Source: Altererythrobacter xiamenensis
Lineage (GTDB): Bacteria; Pseudomonadota; Alphaproteobacteria; Sphingomonadales; Sphingomonadaceae
Assembly: GCF_900177715.1 (NCBI RefSeq)
Contig: NZ_FXWG01000001.1
Span: 1 to 64,000 of the forward strand
Reading direction: 5' to 3'
DNA: 64,000 bases
Shown here: piece by piece, positions 499-6,357 of the stretch
Layout of the letters: each line of letters begins with the position of its first letter
How positions within the stretch are numbered: the first letter of the stretch is position 1
Made by a program: the position numbers and the translations under genes
Notes under the pieces: model-generated
What the model was told of the DNA's origin: nothing
The model's input: only the letters and a program-made list of their open reading frames with translations
Database searches by the model: none

Positions 499-600
499 TC
501 GGGACAACATCCAGGAGCGCGTTGTGCAATGCAGGATGCGCTCCTGCCTGGTTTGAACGTTGTATCAAGAGCTGCGCTACATGTTTGCGGAGTGTTCCTA

Positions 601-912
601 ATGACAGAAACTATGGCTGTGGTTGCACTGAGTAATGACGCCCGGCGCGAACGAATATCATCATTGCTTGTCCGCTATCCTGAACTTCAGGGTAGCGAGC
701 TCGAAGAGCTGATCGATTTTTACAAAACCGCTCCGCCGATCGAAACTGCCCTCCTGACGTGCGAGGAGAATGTCGCGGCAAAAGCCAGGCAGTTCCTCAA
801 CGAGCATGCGAAGGCAACATCGCGCGGGCTGGAAGCGCCTCTCGTAGTGGTCGTTTTCGTTCTCCTAGCCATCGTAATCATGTTTGCCTTAGCGTTTCAC
901 TTACCTGCATGA
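601..912 (+). CDS. Hypothetical protein with a C-terminal membrane anchor
   Basis: 103 residues from ATG 601, chosen because GGAG at 589-592 sits 8 bases upstream; an in-frame ATG at 529 lacks this. The N-terminal 70 residues look helical and soluble, with a PELQG-SELEELIDFYK stretch. The last 25 residues are a Val/Ile/Leu-rich transmembrane helix, so it is probably a tail-anchored inner-membrane protein facing the cytoplasm. The next gene starts 28 bases downstream and also encodes a membrane protein, so the two may form a small operon. I do not recognise the family. Confidence 0.55.
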   Translation: MTETMAVVALSNDARRERISSLLVRYPELQGSELEELIDFYKTAPPIETALLTCEENVAAKARQFLNEHAKATSRGLEAPLVVVVFVLLAIVIMFALAFHLPA

Positions 913-940
913 CGAATATCGATAGCTCGCGGCTTCCGCT

Positions 941-1210
941 ATGAAACCTCCGTCGCAAGACCAATTTTCAGCGCTCGAAGTGGGGGTCGCAGCATTCAAT
1001 GTTGCATGCGGTTTCCTTGTTGCTGTCGTTCTTATCCATGTCGTTTTTGGGCAAACACTCCTCCAACAGATCTTCATCTGGCTGGCCGGTAGCCTTGCAG
1101 TTGGGATTTTGGCGCGGGTCTGGCTTCGACAAAAAGAGACGCGCAGACATCCCGTAAATTTCCTCCTCGTTGCGGTCGCGGGCTTCGTTGCACTGGATGT
1201 TACGGTGTAG
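941..1210 (+). CDS. Small inner-membrane protein, three helices
   Basis: 89 residues with hydrophobic segments at roughly residues 13-36, 41-59 and 72-89. A basic loop (RVWLRQKETRR) between helices two and three suggests that loop is cytoplasmic. It follows the tail-anchored protein gene by 28 bases on the same strand, so co-expression is likely. No conserved family motif was recognised. Base composition is less GC-rich than in the housekeeping genes further right, like the rest of the first 2.4 kb. Confidence 0.5.
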   Translation: MKPPSQDQFSALEVGVAAFNVACGFLVAVVLIHVVFGQTLLQQIFIWLAGSLAVGILARVWLRQKETRRHPVNFLLVAVAGFVALDVTV

Positions 1211-1416
1211 GACGCTGGGGCTGGGCGATCAGAGCGATTTTTGGGGGCCGTATCGCTTCGTCTGTTTGGTTGGGGCGGAGTAAGATCGGGGTTGCTTGTT
1301 CACCTGCGCCCCATCCGCCCGCATCTATAATTACTCTTGTGTGGTCAATCACCGTTGGGAGCTGGATTCCCATCGTTGTTCCGAACTTCAATAATTATTC
1401 GAGCGAGGTCCGTCGA

Positions 1417-2127
1417 ATGGAACGGGAAGCCCAGAAGCCAATCGAACGTATCCAAGAAAATATGCTCGCCCGCAGTGAGCGGCGTCTCCTAAACTGGATC
1501 TGCGCGCGAATGCCCGCATGGGTGTCACCCGACATGCTAACCTTCGTGGGCATGGCGGGTGCCTTCATGGTTTTTGCAGGATATGTCGGAAGCAACCTCG
1601 GGGATGAGTGGCTGTGGCTGGCCATCGCGGGATATGTAATCCAATGGTTTGGCGATTCCACTGACGGTAGCCTCGCTCGCTTCCGCAAGATCGAGCGGCC
1701 ACGATACGGCTACTTCCTCGACCATAGTTGCGATGGTCTGGCAACGACGCTTGTAGTGGTGGGCATAGGACTCAGTCCTTACGTGACACTCGAAATAGCG
1801 CTTGTGGCTCTATCGGGCTACCTCCTGCTCTCGATCCACGCCTTTCTCTCGGTGCGCGTTCTTGGCGAACTAAAACTGTCGTATTTGAACGCCGGCCCAA
1901 CCGAGCTGCGCTTCCTGTTGATTGCCTTGACCCTGGCGATGGTGGGATTTGGAACGGGTCCCGGTGTCTTTGGGAAAGTGAACGGGTTTGATCTTTTCGT
2001 CGGTGGTGTCGGGTGCGTGTTGATCATTCTATTCACCATTCAAACCTGGGTCACAGCACGTCGGTTGGCGAAAGAGGAGCCGTCTCGTAACGCGGAGTGG
2101 TCCAGTCAGCGAGGGGCTGGAGATTAG
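1417..2127 (+). CDS. CDP-alcohol phosphatidyltransferase family protein
   Basis: 236 residues from ATG 1417, which has GAGG 8 bases upstream (1405-1408); an in-frame ATG at 1270 has no clear ribosome binding site. The protein carries the family signature D-x2-DG-x2-AR-x8-G-x3-D-x3-D, seen as DSTDGSLARFRK followed by YGYFLDHSCDG, and about six hydrophobic helices. These inner-membrane enzymes move a phosphoalcohol from CDP-alcohol to a second alcohol, making phospholipid or head-group intermediates. The substrate cannot be read from sequence. The next gene on this strand is a sphingosine-phosphate-lyase-like enzyme, which raises the possibility of a sphingolipid or inositol-lipid role. Confidence 0.85.
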   Translation: MEREAQKPIERIQENMLARSERRLLNWICARMPAWVSPDMLTFVGMAGAFMVFAGYVGSNLGDEWLWLAIAGYVIQWFGDSTDGSLARFRKIERPRYGYFLDHSCDGLATTLVVVGIGLSPYVTLEIALVALSGYLLLSIHAFLSVRVLGELKLSYLNAGPTELRFLLIALTLAMVGFGTGPGVFGKVNGFDLFVGGVGCVLIILFTIQTWVTARRLAKEEPSRNAEWSSQRGAGD

Positions 2128-2425
2128 CCGTGCCCAATACTCTGCATGGTTGATTTACTCTCCGCTTTCCACCCATTCGGGGATGTTCGCGCTGAGAAAT
2201 TTACGTCCTATGAGCTGAAGGTCCGAACTTTGCGCCGATTTCGCACTGTCTGCTACCGCTTAGGCAGAAGACTGTCGTTGAGGTTAGAGCCAGGTGGATG
2301 GCGTCTCATGCTGCATCGATCGAAAATCGATGACGCGAGGCTAAGTGTAGAGTCTGGCTATTCCGCAACTATAGTGTGCAGCCTAGCCGAACCAGACCGT
2401 CGCGCGTTCGAAAGGAGAAGGTTGA
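2128..2425 (+). other. Intergenic stretch without a supported gene
   Basis: These 298 bases separate the phosphatidyltransferase from the lyase-like gene. A short open frame crosses the stretch and runs into the lyase gene in another frame, but it has no ribosome binding site and no recognisable sequence. One copy of a degenerate intergenic repeat lies at 2161-2176. AGGAG at the far end belongs to the lyase gene. A promoter for the lyase may lie here, but no clear -35/-10 pair was recognised. Confidence 0.5.
2161..2176 (+). repeat. Degenerate dispersed repeat, copy A
   Basis: TCCGCTTTCCACCCAT. The same motif with three differences occurs at 8184-8199. Complementary-looking GATAGCGGAC segments occur at 7622 and 8233. 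All copies are intergenic and confined to the left end of the window. Confidence 0.35.
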
Positions 2426-3664
2426 ATGGAAATCCCGGCTCATGGCCGCCCTTGGGATGAAATTAGGGTCGAGCTTGTGAATCGAGGATCGGGGGATGCC
2501 AATTGGCGCGAGGGCAAAACTGCAGTCTACGTCTTCAACGCCGGCCCCGAGCTCACTCAGGTGCAAAAGGAAGCTTACTCACTCTACATGTCCGAAAATG
2601 GTCTAGGACCGATGGCTTTTCCCTCGCTCGCCCAGATGGAACGCGAGGTCATCCAGATGGCACTCTCCATCCTCAATGGGCCAGATGGCGCCACTGGCGC
2701 CATGACCTCCGGCGGGACCGATAGTATCACCATGGCGATGAAGGCCGCCCGCGACTTCGCCAGAGCGGAGAAGGGACATGCGGAGCAAGGAAATGTCGTC
2801 TTGCCGTTTTCTGCTCACCCCGCCTTCGACAAGGCGGCGCATCTGATGGATCTCGAGATCCGTCGGATCCCGCTCAAGGACGATGGCAGTTACCAAGCCG
2901 ACCCTGAAAGAATGAACGTTGCTTGCGACGATCGAACGATCATGCTGGTCGGCTCGGCCCCGAATTTCCCTCATGGGATTATCGATCCTATCAAGGCTTT
3001 GGGAAAAGTGGCGGCAAGCAAGGATATCTGGCTGCATACTGATGCCTGCGTCGGTGGATATTTCGCTCCTTTCGCCCGTATGAATGGTGTGCCTGTGCCT
3101 CCTTTCGACTTTGGGGTTCCGGCTGTCAGGTCGATTAGCGCCGATCTGCACAAGTACGGCTATGCAGCCAAAGGTGCGTCAACGGTCTTGTTCCGGTCTG
3201 AAGAGTTCTACGACCACATGCCTTTCTCGAACAAAGAGTGGAATGGCGCCCCAATGAAGACGCCAACCCTTGCCGGCACGCGACCAGGAGGTGCCATTTC
3301 CGCAGCATGGGCAGTGATGAATTTTCTGGGTATCGATGGGTACTGCGAAAAGCAGGGTCTGGTTTGCCAAACACGGGAGCGAGTAGCAGAAGGTCTCAAG
3401 AAGCTTGGTTTTGAGATCCTGGGCGATCCGCTCCTTGGATTAATCGCCTTTCGCCATCCAGAGGAAGACAACCTCGCGATCTATGGTGAAATGTACCGAA
3501 AGGGATGGTTCACCTCGATGACCACCCAACCGCCGAGTCTACATCTCATGCTCTCGCCAAAACATGCTGAGGTTGTTGATGAATATCTCACCCACCTGAA
3601 GGAAAGTTTGGCAACCGTCGCTTCAGGGAGGCAGGGCAACCAGATTACACCGCGCTACAGCTGA
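2426..3664 (+). CDS. Sphingosine-1-phosphate-lyase-like PLP-dependent enzyme
   Basis: 412 residues, ATG 2426 preceded by AGGAG. The fold type I (group II decarboxylase-like) hallmarks of S1P lyases appear in order: TSGGTDSI for phosphate binding, an AHPAFDKAAH segment, APNFPHGIIDPI, HTDACVGG carrying the PLP-contacting Asp, and SADLHKYGYAAKG with Lys243 as the expected PLP Schiff-base lysine, then TLAGTRPGG. S1P lyases cleave phosphorylated long-chain bases to a fatty aldehyde and phosphoethanolamine. No N-terminal transmembrane helix is seen, unlike eukaryotic S1PL; bacterial homologues also vary here. Sphingomonads make sphingolipids, so a catabolic or remodelling role is plausible. A different phosphorylated amino-alcohol or amino-acid substrate cannot be excluded. 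Confidence 0.8.
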   Translation: MEIPAHGRPWDEIRVELVNRGSGDANWREGKTAVYVFNAGPELTQVQKEAYSLYMSENGLGPMAFPSLAQMEREVIQMALSILNGPDGATGAMTSGGTDSITMAMKAARDFARAEKGHAEQGNVVLPFSAHPAFDKAAHLMDLEIRRIPLKDDGSYQADPERMNVACDDRTIMLVGSAPNFPHGIIDPIKALGKVAASKDIWLHTDACVGGYFAPFARMNGVPVPPFDFGVPAVRSISADLHKYGYAAKGASTVLFRSEEFYDHMPFSNKEWNGAPMKTPTLAGTRPGGAISAAWAVMNFLGIDGYCEKQGLVCQTRERVAEGLKKLGFEILGDPLLGLIAFRHPEEDNLAIYGEMYRKGWFTSMTTQPPSLHLMLSPKHAEVVDEYLTHLKESLATVASGRQGNQITPRYS

Positions 3665-4368
3665 TCTTGACCGGAATGGCCGCAGAGAATCTCTGCAATC
3701 AGGGCTTGGAAGTCCAAAGCCTATGGCTTGGAAGAGGGCGCAAAACTGCCCAGAGATTCTAGCGAGGACTTGTGTATGGATTCGGAACCGGTCCCTGTCG
3801 GGGGGAGTGGAGCAGAAACGGCGTTCTCTACCCAATCTTCTCAGGCAGCGCGAACAGGCTCACGAAGTTTTCAGCTGCGGTCAAATCCCCCTCGAGATCC
3901 TTGGAAGGTGTGGCGAAGCCGCAGGGAGTGGGGCCATGCGCTTCACCAGAGACGGTGTTTGGACCTCCGCCCATAATATCGACCGGCTATCGTGGTGCAA
4001 CTATGGCGAGAAGCAGAGCGACCGCGCAAAGACAGATTGAACGAATGTTCCGACACGGTACGGAAGGTCTGTAATTCGCTTACAGGCCCCGCATCGATGC
4101 ATGTCACGCCTTCGCCGGGCTTCAGCTCTGCCCTGGCACAACCTGCTCGCTGATCCGAGAAAGTCCGTCAGTAGCAGCTTCGACTGCCCCAATCCGCGCC
4201 AGGGAGTTCAATCTGGCGGCCGTGATCATTCCCAAATGGGCTGGATGCTGAAGCAGATCGCGGCCCCCGCTTCGCAAGCGCTCCGACAGGAATTTCTGAA
4301 CTTATGGCCATGTCATTCGTTGGCCTTGTGAAACGGAATAGATGACGCAGGTGAAAGCAGGGGAAGCT
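3665..4368. other. Gene-poor, probably degraded region
   Basis: About 700 bases between the lyase-like gene and the BCCT transporter. Several short open frames overlap in both directions, but none has both a ribosome binding site and a recognisable product. On the minus strand around 3830-3980 an open frame ends in a plausible coding-like segment (FVSLFALPEKIG) without a family match. Scattered MerR-like fragments lie at 4064-4311. I read the stretch as decayed sequence. Confidence 0.4.
4064..4311 (-). pseudogene. Possible decayed merR-family regulator
   Basis: From ATG 4311 the minus strand encodes MAISSEIPVGALAKR, close to the start of many MerR helix-turn-helix regulators. The reading then breaks down. 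In a second frame, 4190-4143 encodes GAVEAATDGLSRISEQ, which recalls the GF-x-VEAIRDLL-x-LSEQ segment of MerR proteins. In another frame, 4081-4064 encodes KRITDL, like the V..RI.DL segment of the C-terminal helix. Order and spacing fit one gene broken by several frameshifts. This is a by-eye resemblance over short pieces and may be coincidental. Confidence 0.3.

Positions 4369-6357
<1,989 letters not shown>

Follow-up and report, generated by a model that had tools for sequence, protein, structure and literature searches.

The closest described systems for the lyase-like gene of this locus are the sphingosine-1-phosphate (S1P) lyases (SPLs), and for comparison we used the available parts of PMC6148460, PMC5234717, PMC5733215 and PMC3148216. 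The SPL residues that form the PLP site and bind the substrate phosphate are taken from Table 3 in the accessible text of PMC6148460. As far as that text goes, mutation of yeast SPL at the Tyr105 or His129 position is reported to do less harm than mutation of the lysines, so that changes at these two positions alone do not exclude S1P as a substrate. The B. pseudomallei SPL carries Gln at position 129 and is still an active SPL (available parts of PMC6148460 and PMC5234717), with about 8% activity on sphingosine (PMC5234717).

The window analysed here, a stretch of 64,000 nucleotides, starts with the first base of contig C5 in the host genome, which measures 3.08 Mb in five contigs and has Erythrobacter strains as close named relatives. 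The original prediction saw two genes on one strand, a CDP-alcohol phosphotransferase and an enzyme resembling S1P lyase, and both proved to be real:

501-4000: low-GC patch with both genes (GC 0.552, against 0.617 for the whole window)
1417-2127, + strand: gene for a CDP-alcohol phosphotransferase of 236 aa, from ATG to stop (PF01066)
2128-2425: gap of 298 bp between the phosphotransferase and the lyase-like gene
2146-2460: ORF of 104 aa that fills most of the gap, without Pfam match and probably spurious
2426-3664, + strand: gene for a PLP-dependent enzyme of 412 aa, short-form SPL-like family (Pfam Pyridoxal_deC, E 6.6e-24)
4342-6357, + strand: BetT-type (choline) BCCT transporter, following closely on the low-GC patch (NCBIfam 703.9 bits, cut-off 695)

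The phosphotransferase frame is open already from TTG 1270, and an AGGAG-like stretch lies directly 5' of the ATG of the lyase-like gene. With the lowest GC among 242 windows of 3.5 kb, the patch 501-4000 suggests acquired DNA.

By sequence and by fold, the enzyme is closer to S1P lyases than to MfnA or glutamate decarboxylases (GAD). A sequence search of the PDB matched it to StSPL (9.5e-85, 288 bits) and human SPL (8.6e-79, 268 bits), with MfnA at 104 bits and GAD at 84. Its AlphaFold2 model, built on an input alignment of 47 rows (mean pLDDT 93.9, pTM 0.92), has StSPL as the nearest fold (Z 55.7, rmsd 1.4 over 405 residues, 38% identity). The range for other SPLs is Z 51.9-54.9, apart from the L. 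pneumophila SPL with 39.4 over 347 residues, while MfnA reaches Z 46.7 at 24% identity and GAD Z about 44 at 23%. Among NCBIfam matches, which include no SPL model, the best is MfnA (TIGR03812) with 243.4 bits, under the cut-off of 299.4; the GAD family model gives 105 bits against 380, so that the enzyme is not a GAD by cut-off.

The enzyme is related to confirmed S1P lyases yet lies outside their clade. Our IQ-TREE tree of 90 rows (L037, L011, L068 and L170 left out as duplicates or fragments) took in SPL, short-form and GAD rows, MfnA not being among them. The enzyme sits in a clade of 24 rows (100/99) within a short-form clade of 75 rows (94/98), separate from an SPL clade of six rows (97/95) that holds StSPL, human and A. 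fumigatus SPL and three gammaproteobacterial proteins. Forcing the 24 rows into one clade with the three confirmed SPLs costs 78 log-likelihood units and is rejected at p-AU 5.0e-10, for a group that was named after the tree was seen. The GAD of E. coli and Rhodococcus lie outside, so that the grouping with glutamate or tyrosine decarboxylases, named by the original prediction as an outcome that would speak against it, is not seen in this MfnA-free tree; the GAD branches are very long and the root is thus not firm. Except for two rows (L007, L161), the short forms are alphaproteobacterial; they are without the C-terminal extension of SPL and measure 407-458 aa in 71 of 75 ORFs, the other four (509-1032 aa) owing their length to a caller that takes the first start codon. 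The three gammaproteobacterial proteins (L008:7941-9449, L009:5675-7150, L010:7941-9452; 491-503 aa) keep Tyr105, have Asn at the His129 position and share a neighbourhood that, judged by eye, includes a TetR-like regulator.

The S1P-lyase landmarks that had been noticed in the enzyme are borne out by alignment to StSPL, beginning with Lys243, which holds the position of the Schiff-base lysine, StSPL Lys311. H131, D206, C208, H242 and K249 likewise match SPL residues listed in the accessible Table 3 of PMC6148460. Throughout the 24-row clade the PLP-site residues Lys311, Asp274, Cys276, His201, His310 and Gly168/Thr169 are kept (24/24), and Ser353 of the same list is replaced by Thr (24/24). 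The substrate-phosphate site retains two of its five SPL residues, Asn126 and Lys317, in 24/24 (Asn58 and Lys249 of the enzyme). The remaining three are replaced, again in 24/24, A103 by Y, Y105 by F and H129 by G (Tyr35, Phe37 and Gly61). A two-residue alignment slip around Tyr36 is unlikely: intermediates such as L079 (AYVY) and L008 (SLVY) back an alignment without gaps, as does a repeat with MAFFT. Of the 51 short forms outside this clade, 30 carry Phe and 13 carry Tyr at position 105, and 22 carry Gly at position 129. The phosphate cup thus varies among the short-form subclades and the cofactor site hardly does, a pattern that would look like substrate diversification.

The end of the chain is a second hallmark of the short forms. 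Of the 74 counted (L095 is truncated by a contig end and was left out), 73 have a Tyr among their last four residues, where composition would give 12%; after reduction to 60% non-redundancy the figure is 27 of 28. The ten residues before it share a mean identity of 12%, against 41% for the whole proteins. This Tyr stands 166-176 residues from the catalytic Lys in 74/74, and the distance from Lys to Tyr482 in five published SPLs is 171, 174, 173, 171 and 183. The exception is L161, in which the last Tyr keeps the spacing and 18 more residues follow; in the gammaproteobacterial proteins of the SPL clade, Tyr stands at 173 within AMYGM and the chain continues. In the enzyme itself Tyr411 is penultimate, its spacing fits SPL Tyr482 and the extension beyond it is absent. 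Equivalence with Tyr482 rests on this spacing and on a structural alignment to the predicted model, which stops at StSPL 482 = model residue 409, two residues before Tyr411, model confidence being low in the last residues of the 412-aa protein. The near-terminal Tyr at matching spacing speaks against a loss of Tyr482 in the short forms. The simplest reading is that the short forms stop right after what would be the substrate-entry Tyr of SPL.

Carriers of the lyase-like gene are patchily distributed: 3/61 genomes of the genus at E<=1e-20 and, at E<=1e-40, 22/396 of the order, 39/337 of the class and 7/398 of the phylum. In ten of the 22 order-level carriers the gene is of the close kind: that of the enzyme itself, or one with 63-78% identity to it. 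Searching 249 genomes of the phylum with StSPL yielded no separate canonical SPL; all four carriers were already matches of the enzyme's own search. Sphingomonads had been noted as makers of glycosphingolipids, and contig C4 of the host carries a gene for a Sphingomonas-type serine palmitoyltransferase (SPT), with E 3.9e-210 to its best PDB match; to judge by it, the host should make sphingoid bases. SPT at 63-100% identity is present in 10 of the 22 tested genomes of the 24-row clade. The other 12 hold no recognisable SPT, their best matches reaching 31-35% identity and 161-194 bits. These matches look like other oxoamine synthases, since genomes that do have SPT give second-best matches in the same range (the host 157 bits, G180 the most with 203), or possibly a very divergent SPT. 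Three of seven other genomes searched gave a match of 47-49%. A DAGK domain, of the sphingosine-kinase type, occurs in 28/29 genomes and 13/14 controls and is neither specific nor informative; this search of 29 genomes identified no dedicated sphingosine kinase. The claim of an S1P-lyase-like enzyme stands for nearest sequence and fold, but S1P-lyase activity is weakened by the position outside the SPL clade, the loss of three of five phosphate residues and the 12/22 carriers without recognisable SPT.

Gene neighbourhoods differ between the enzyme's own clade and more distant short forms. Around members of the 24-row clade the neighbours are mixed, with metallo-beta-lactamase in 8/137 and enoyl-CoA hydratase in 7/137 by Pfam. 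The tallies of these 137 neighbours point to no operon partner, and the 25 families listed of 124 include no amino-acid transporter family. Among relatives at 35-45% identity, an amino-acid ABC transporter and GntR adjoin the gene in Sulfitobacter and on a Sinorhizobium plasmid. In a Rhizobium relative GntR adjoins and M20 and an importer are no more than about 5 kb away, and on two Rhodobacterales plasmids AA_synth and M20 lie downstream and an amino-acid importer upstream of the short-form gene. A tally of 36 contexts of other short forms, which includes these loci and is not independent of them, gave 6 GntR, 4 BPD_transp_1, 3 SBP_bac_3 and 2 arginase among 122 of 191 neighbour ORFs scanned. 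Two short forms stand beside an agmatinase-family gene (L161:7664-10018 and L166:7956-10562). By called ORF ends, L161 has the agmatinase-like gene 9 bp upstream and L166 has it 255 bp downstream, hinting at a pair of guanidino amino-acid decarboxylase and agmatinase. Because of the importer, GntR, M20, AA_synth and agmatinase-like neighbours, this evidence favours soluble amino-acid-like substrates for the wider short-form group, and the same may apply to the present enzyme. Nine loci (L077, L120, L121, L122, L124, L125, L126, L130, L133) have, 2-4 kb downstream of the short form, a metallo-beta-lactamase-type gene (cluster c6), and six of them also have an acyl-CoA-synthetase-like gene (cluster c3) within 5.5 kb.

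We tentatively read the enzyme, at a probability of about 0.48, as an SPL-type protein outside the true SPLs that was repurposed for an amino-acid-like substrate rather than S1P, the phosphotransferase being a separate matter. It is a fold-type I, group II PLP enzyme in which, by homology to SPL, Lys243 holds PLP and Asp206, His131 and Cys208 position it, His131 and Cys208 forming a sandwich. The substrate amine would displace Lys243, and a bond at C-alpha would then be broken, probably by alpha-decarboxylation and less likely by retro-aldol cleavage of a beta-hydroxy amine. Within a phosphate cup rebuilt with Tyr35, Phe37 and Gly61, Lys249 and Asn58 could still offer an anion site, and Tyr411 may take the place of the substrate-entry Tyr482 of SPL. 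The most likely substrate would be soluble, polar and amino-acid-like. Several observations pull the other way. K317 and N126 survive and Tyr35, two residues off, could replace Tyr105, so that binding of a phosphate could persist; yeast SPL is reported to tolerate mutation at Tyr105 and His129 better than at the lysines, and the B. pseudomallei SPL is active despite its Gln at 129, as far as the available text of PMC6148460 and PMC5234717 goes. SPT is found in 10/22 carriers, with the 47-49% match in 3/7 other genomes, and acyl-CoA genes near some close homologues (the enoyl-CoA hydratase in 7/137) would suit a fatty aldehyde product, whereas the amino-acid transporter contexts come from the relatives at 35-45% identity and not from the enzyme's own clade.

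Much of this would equally serve a true lyase for phosphorylated sphingoid bases, with a rearranged phosphate pocket in which Tyr35 stands for Tyr105, turning over the host's own or algal sphingolipids. SPLs are nearest in fold and sequence, K317, N126 and a Tyr at the Tyr482 spacing are kept, the host has SPT and acyl-CoA genes lie near some orthologues. Yet such an enzyme would stand outside the SPL clade with three phosphate residues changed in 24/24, in carriers of which 12/22 lack a recognisable SPT and for which the near-universal DAGK domain (28/29) identifies no dedicated sphingosine kinase, and we consider it unlikely, if worth keeping in view. Loss of Tyr105 and His129 would also fit a release from the phosphate requirement, and thereby a lyase that splits non-phosphorylated sphingoid bases or other long-chain amino alcohols into ethanolamine and a fatty aldehyde, as the partial activity of the B. 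pseudomallei SPL on sphingosine (about 8% with Gln 129; available part of PMC5234717) might suggest. The retained K317, the 12/22 carriers without recognisable SPT and a gene context in which we found no support make this improbable. An MfnA- or GAD-kind amino-acid decarboxylase misread as SPL-like has the best NCBIfam model on its side (MfnA, 243 bits, cut-off 299) and the missing SPL model among those matches. It is very improbable against up to 288 bits to SPL chains of the PDB (MfnA 104, GAD 84), a Z of 55.7 to SPL (46.7 and 44) and the SPL-type Cys276 and K317. In a wider and distinctly unlikely scenario, the short forms would be a separate, undescribed PLP family, mainly of Alphaproteobacteria, that arose beside the SPLs by pocket rebuilding and a stop after the Tyr. 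The C-terminal Tyr would gate the active site and the subclades would serve different amines or amino acids, the sphingomonad substrate being perhaps the cell's own non-phosphorylated sphingoid base.

The two neighbouring genes, which the original prediction had joined in a pathway for sphingoid bases or head groups, adjoin in this genome alone among the loci examined. Conservation of the pair had been proposed as the check, with adjacency here only as the outcome that would speak against it, and that is the outcome in everything we examined. At E<=1e-10 the phosphotransferase is absent from 31 of 34 lyase carriers. It accompanies the lyase in three (G000, which is this genome, G303 and G346), adjacent only in G000 and on another contig than the lyase in the other two. 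Our ORF caller sometimes takes longer wrong-frame ORFs in GC-rich DNA and thus misses some neighbours, and because it missed the phosphotransferase in 7/21 loci, linkage was retested by tblastn. This test used 68 distinct lyase-family loci, equal to 69 contexts, of which 65 extend 2 kb or more to either side and 55 extend 5 kb; its positive controls were 68/68 and 20/20. The phosphotransferase was near a lyase-family gene in 0/67 other loci, the window alone being positive among 68, and the lyase was near the phosphotransferase in 0/20 other loci. Cooperation of the two enzymes in a head-group or sphingoid-base pathway is therefore largely refuted: their adjacency on one strand here, and the presence of both genes with close lyase orthologues on different contigs of G303 and G346, are set against the 298-bp gap, the failed linkage with all controls positive and the 31/34 carriers without phosphotransferase. 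The gap and the lack of linkage elsewhere also speak against an operon. Given this gap, the shared low-GC patch and the unlinked loci, the pairing is not a unit, and most likely an accident of sharing the patch.

The phosphotransferase belongs to PF01066 (E 1.6e-9, 38.7 bits, cut-off 22), with a choline/ethanolaminephosphotransferase as its best PDB relative (E 4.1e-9). Homologues occur in 29/196 genomes of the order, host included, and their neighbours elsewhere are varied. Several of them (G109, G200, G243, G242, G177) show an in-frame stop within the matched region, which may reflect decay of the gene in part of the relatives.

Bacterial SPL-like matches are easily taken for sphingolipid-degrading enzymes, and the 75-row group illustrates that whole-chain similarity can accompany a rebuilt substrate pocket. 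The residue table together with the near-C-terminal Tyr offers a simple test to separate true SPLs from short forms, on which we found no earlier open-access work among the matches listed. Most useful among the new facts are the pocket changes and this Tyr, which is also open to mechanistic testing.

Compared with known systems, the enzyme shares with the SPLs (StSPL, human SGPL1, yeast Dpl1; EC 4.1.2.27) the fold, the equivalents of Lys311, Asp274, His201, Cys276 and His310, Asn126 and Lys317, and a Tyr at the Tyr482 spacing. It differs from them by Ala103>Tyr, Tyr105>Phe, His129>Gly and Ser353>Thr, by its place outside the SPL clade and by a chain that ends one residue after the Tyr. With the MfnA tyrosine/aspartate decarboxylase it has the group II PLP decarboxylase fold in common and finds there its best NCBIfam model, but stays under the family cut-off, at 24% identity and a lower Z. 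Glutamate decarboxylase GadB, whose C-terminal tail reaches the active site, also shares the group II fold, whereas GAD has Ala at the Cys276 position and E. coli GAD has Leu at the Lys317 position. The phosphotransferase, finally, keeps the CDP-OH-P catalytic motif, D-DG-AR-G-D-D, intact, as do the CDP-alcohol phosphotransferases (PF01066; CEPT1, archaetidylinositol phosphate synthase), but it is set apart from them by a score far under the NCBIfam cut-off, 41 against 180 bits.
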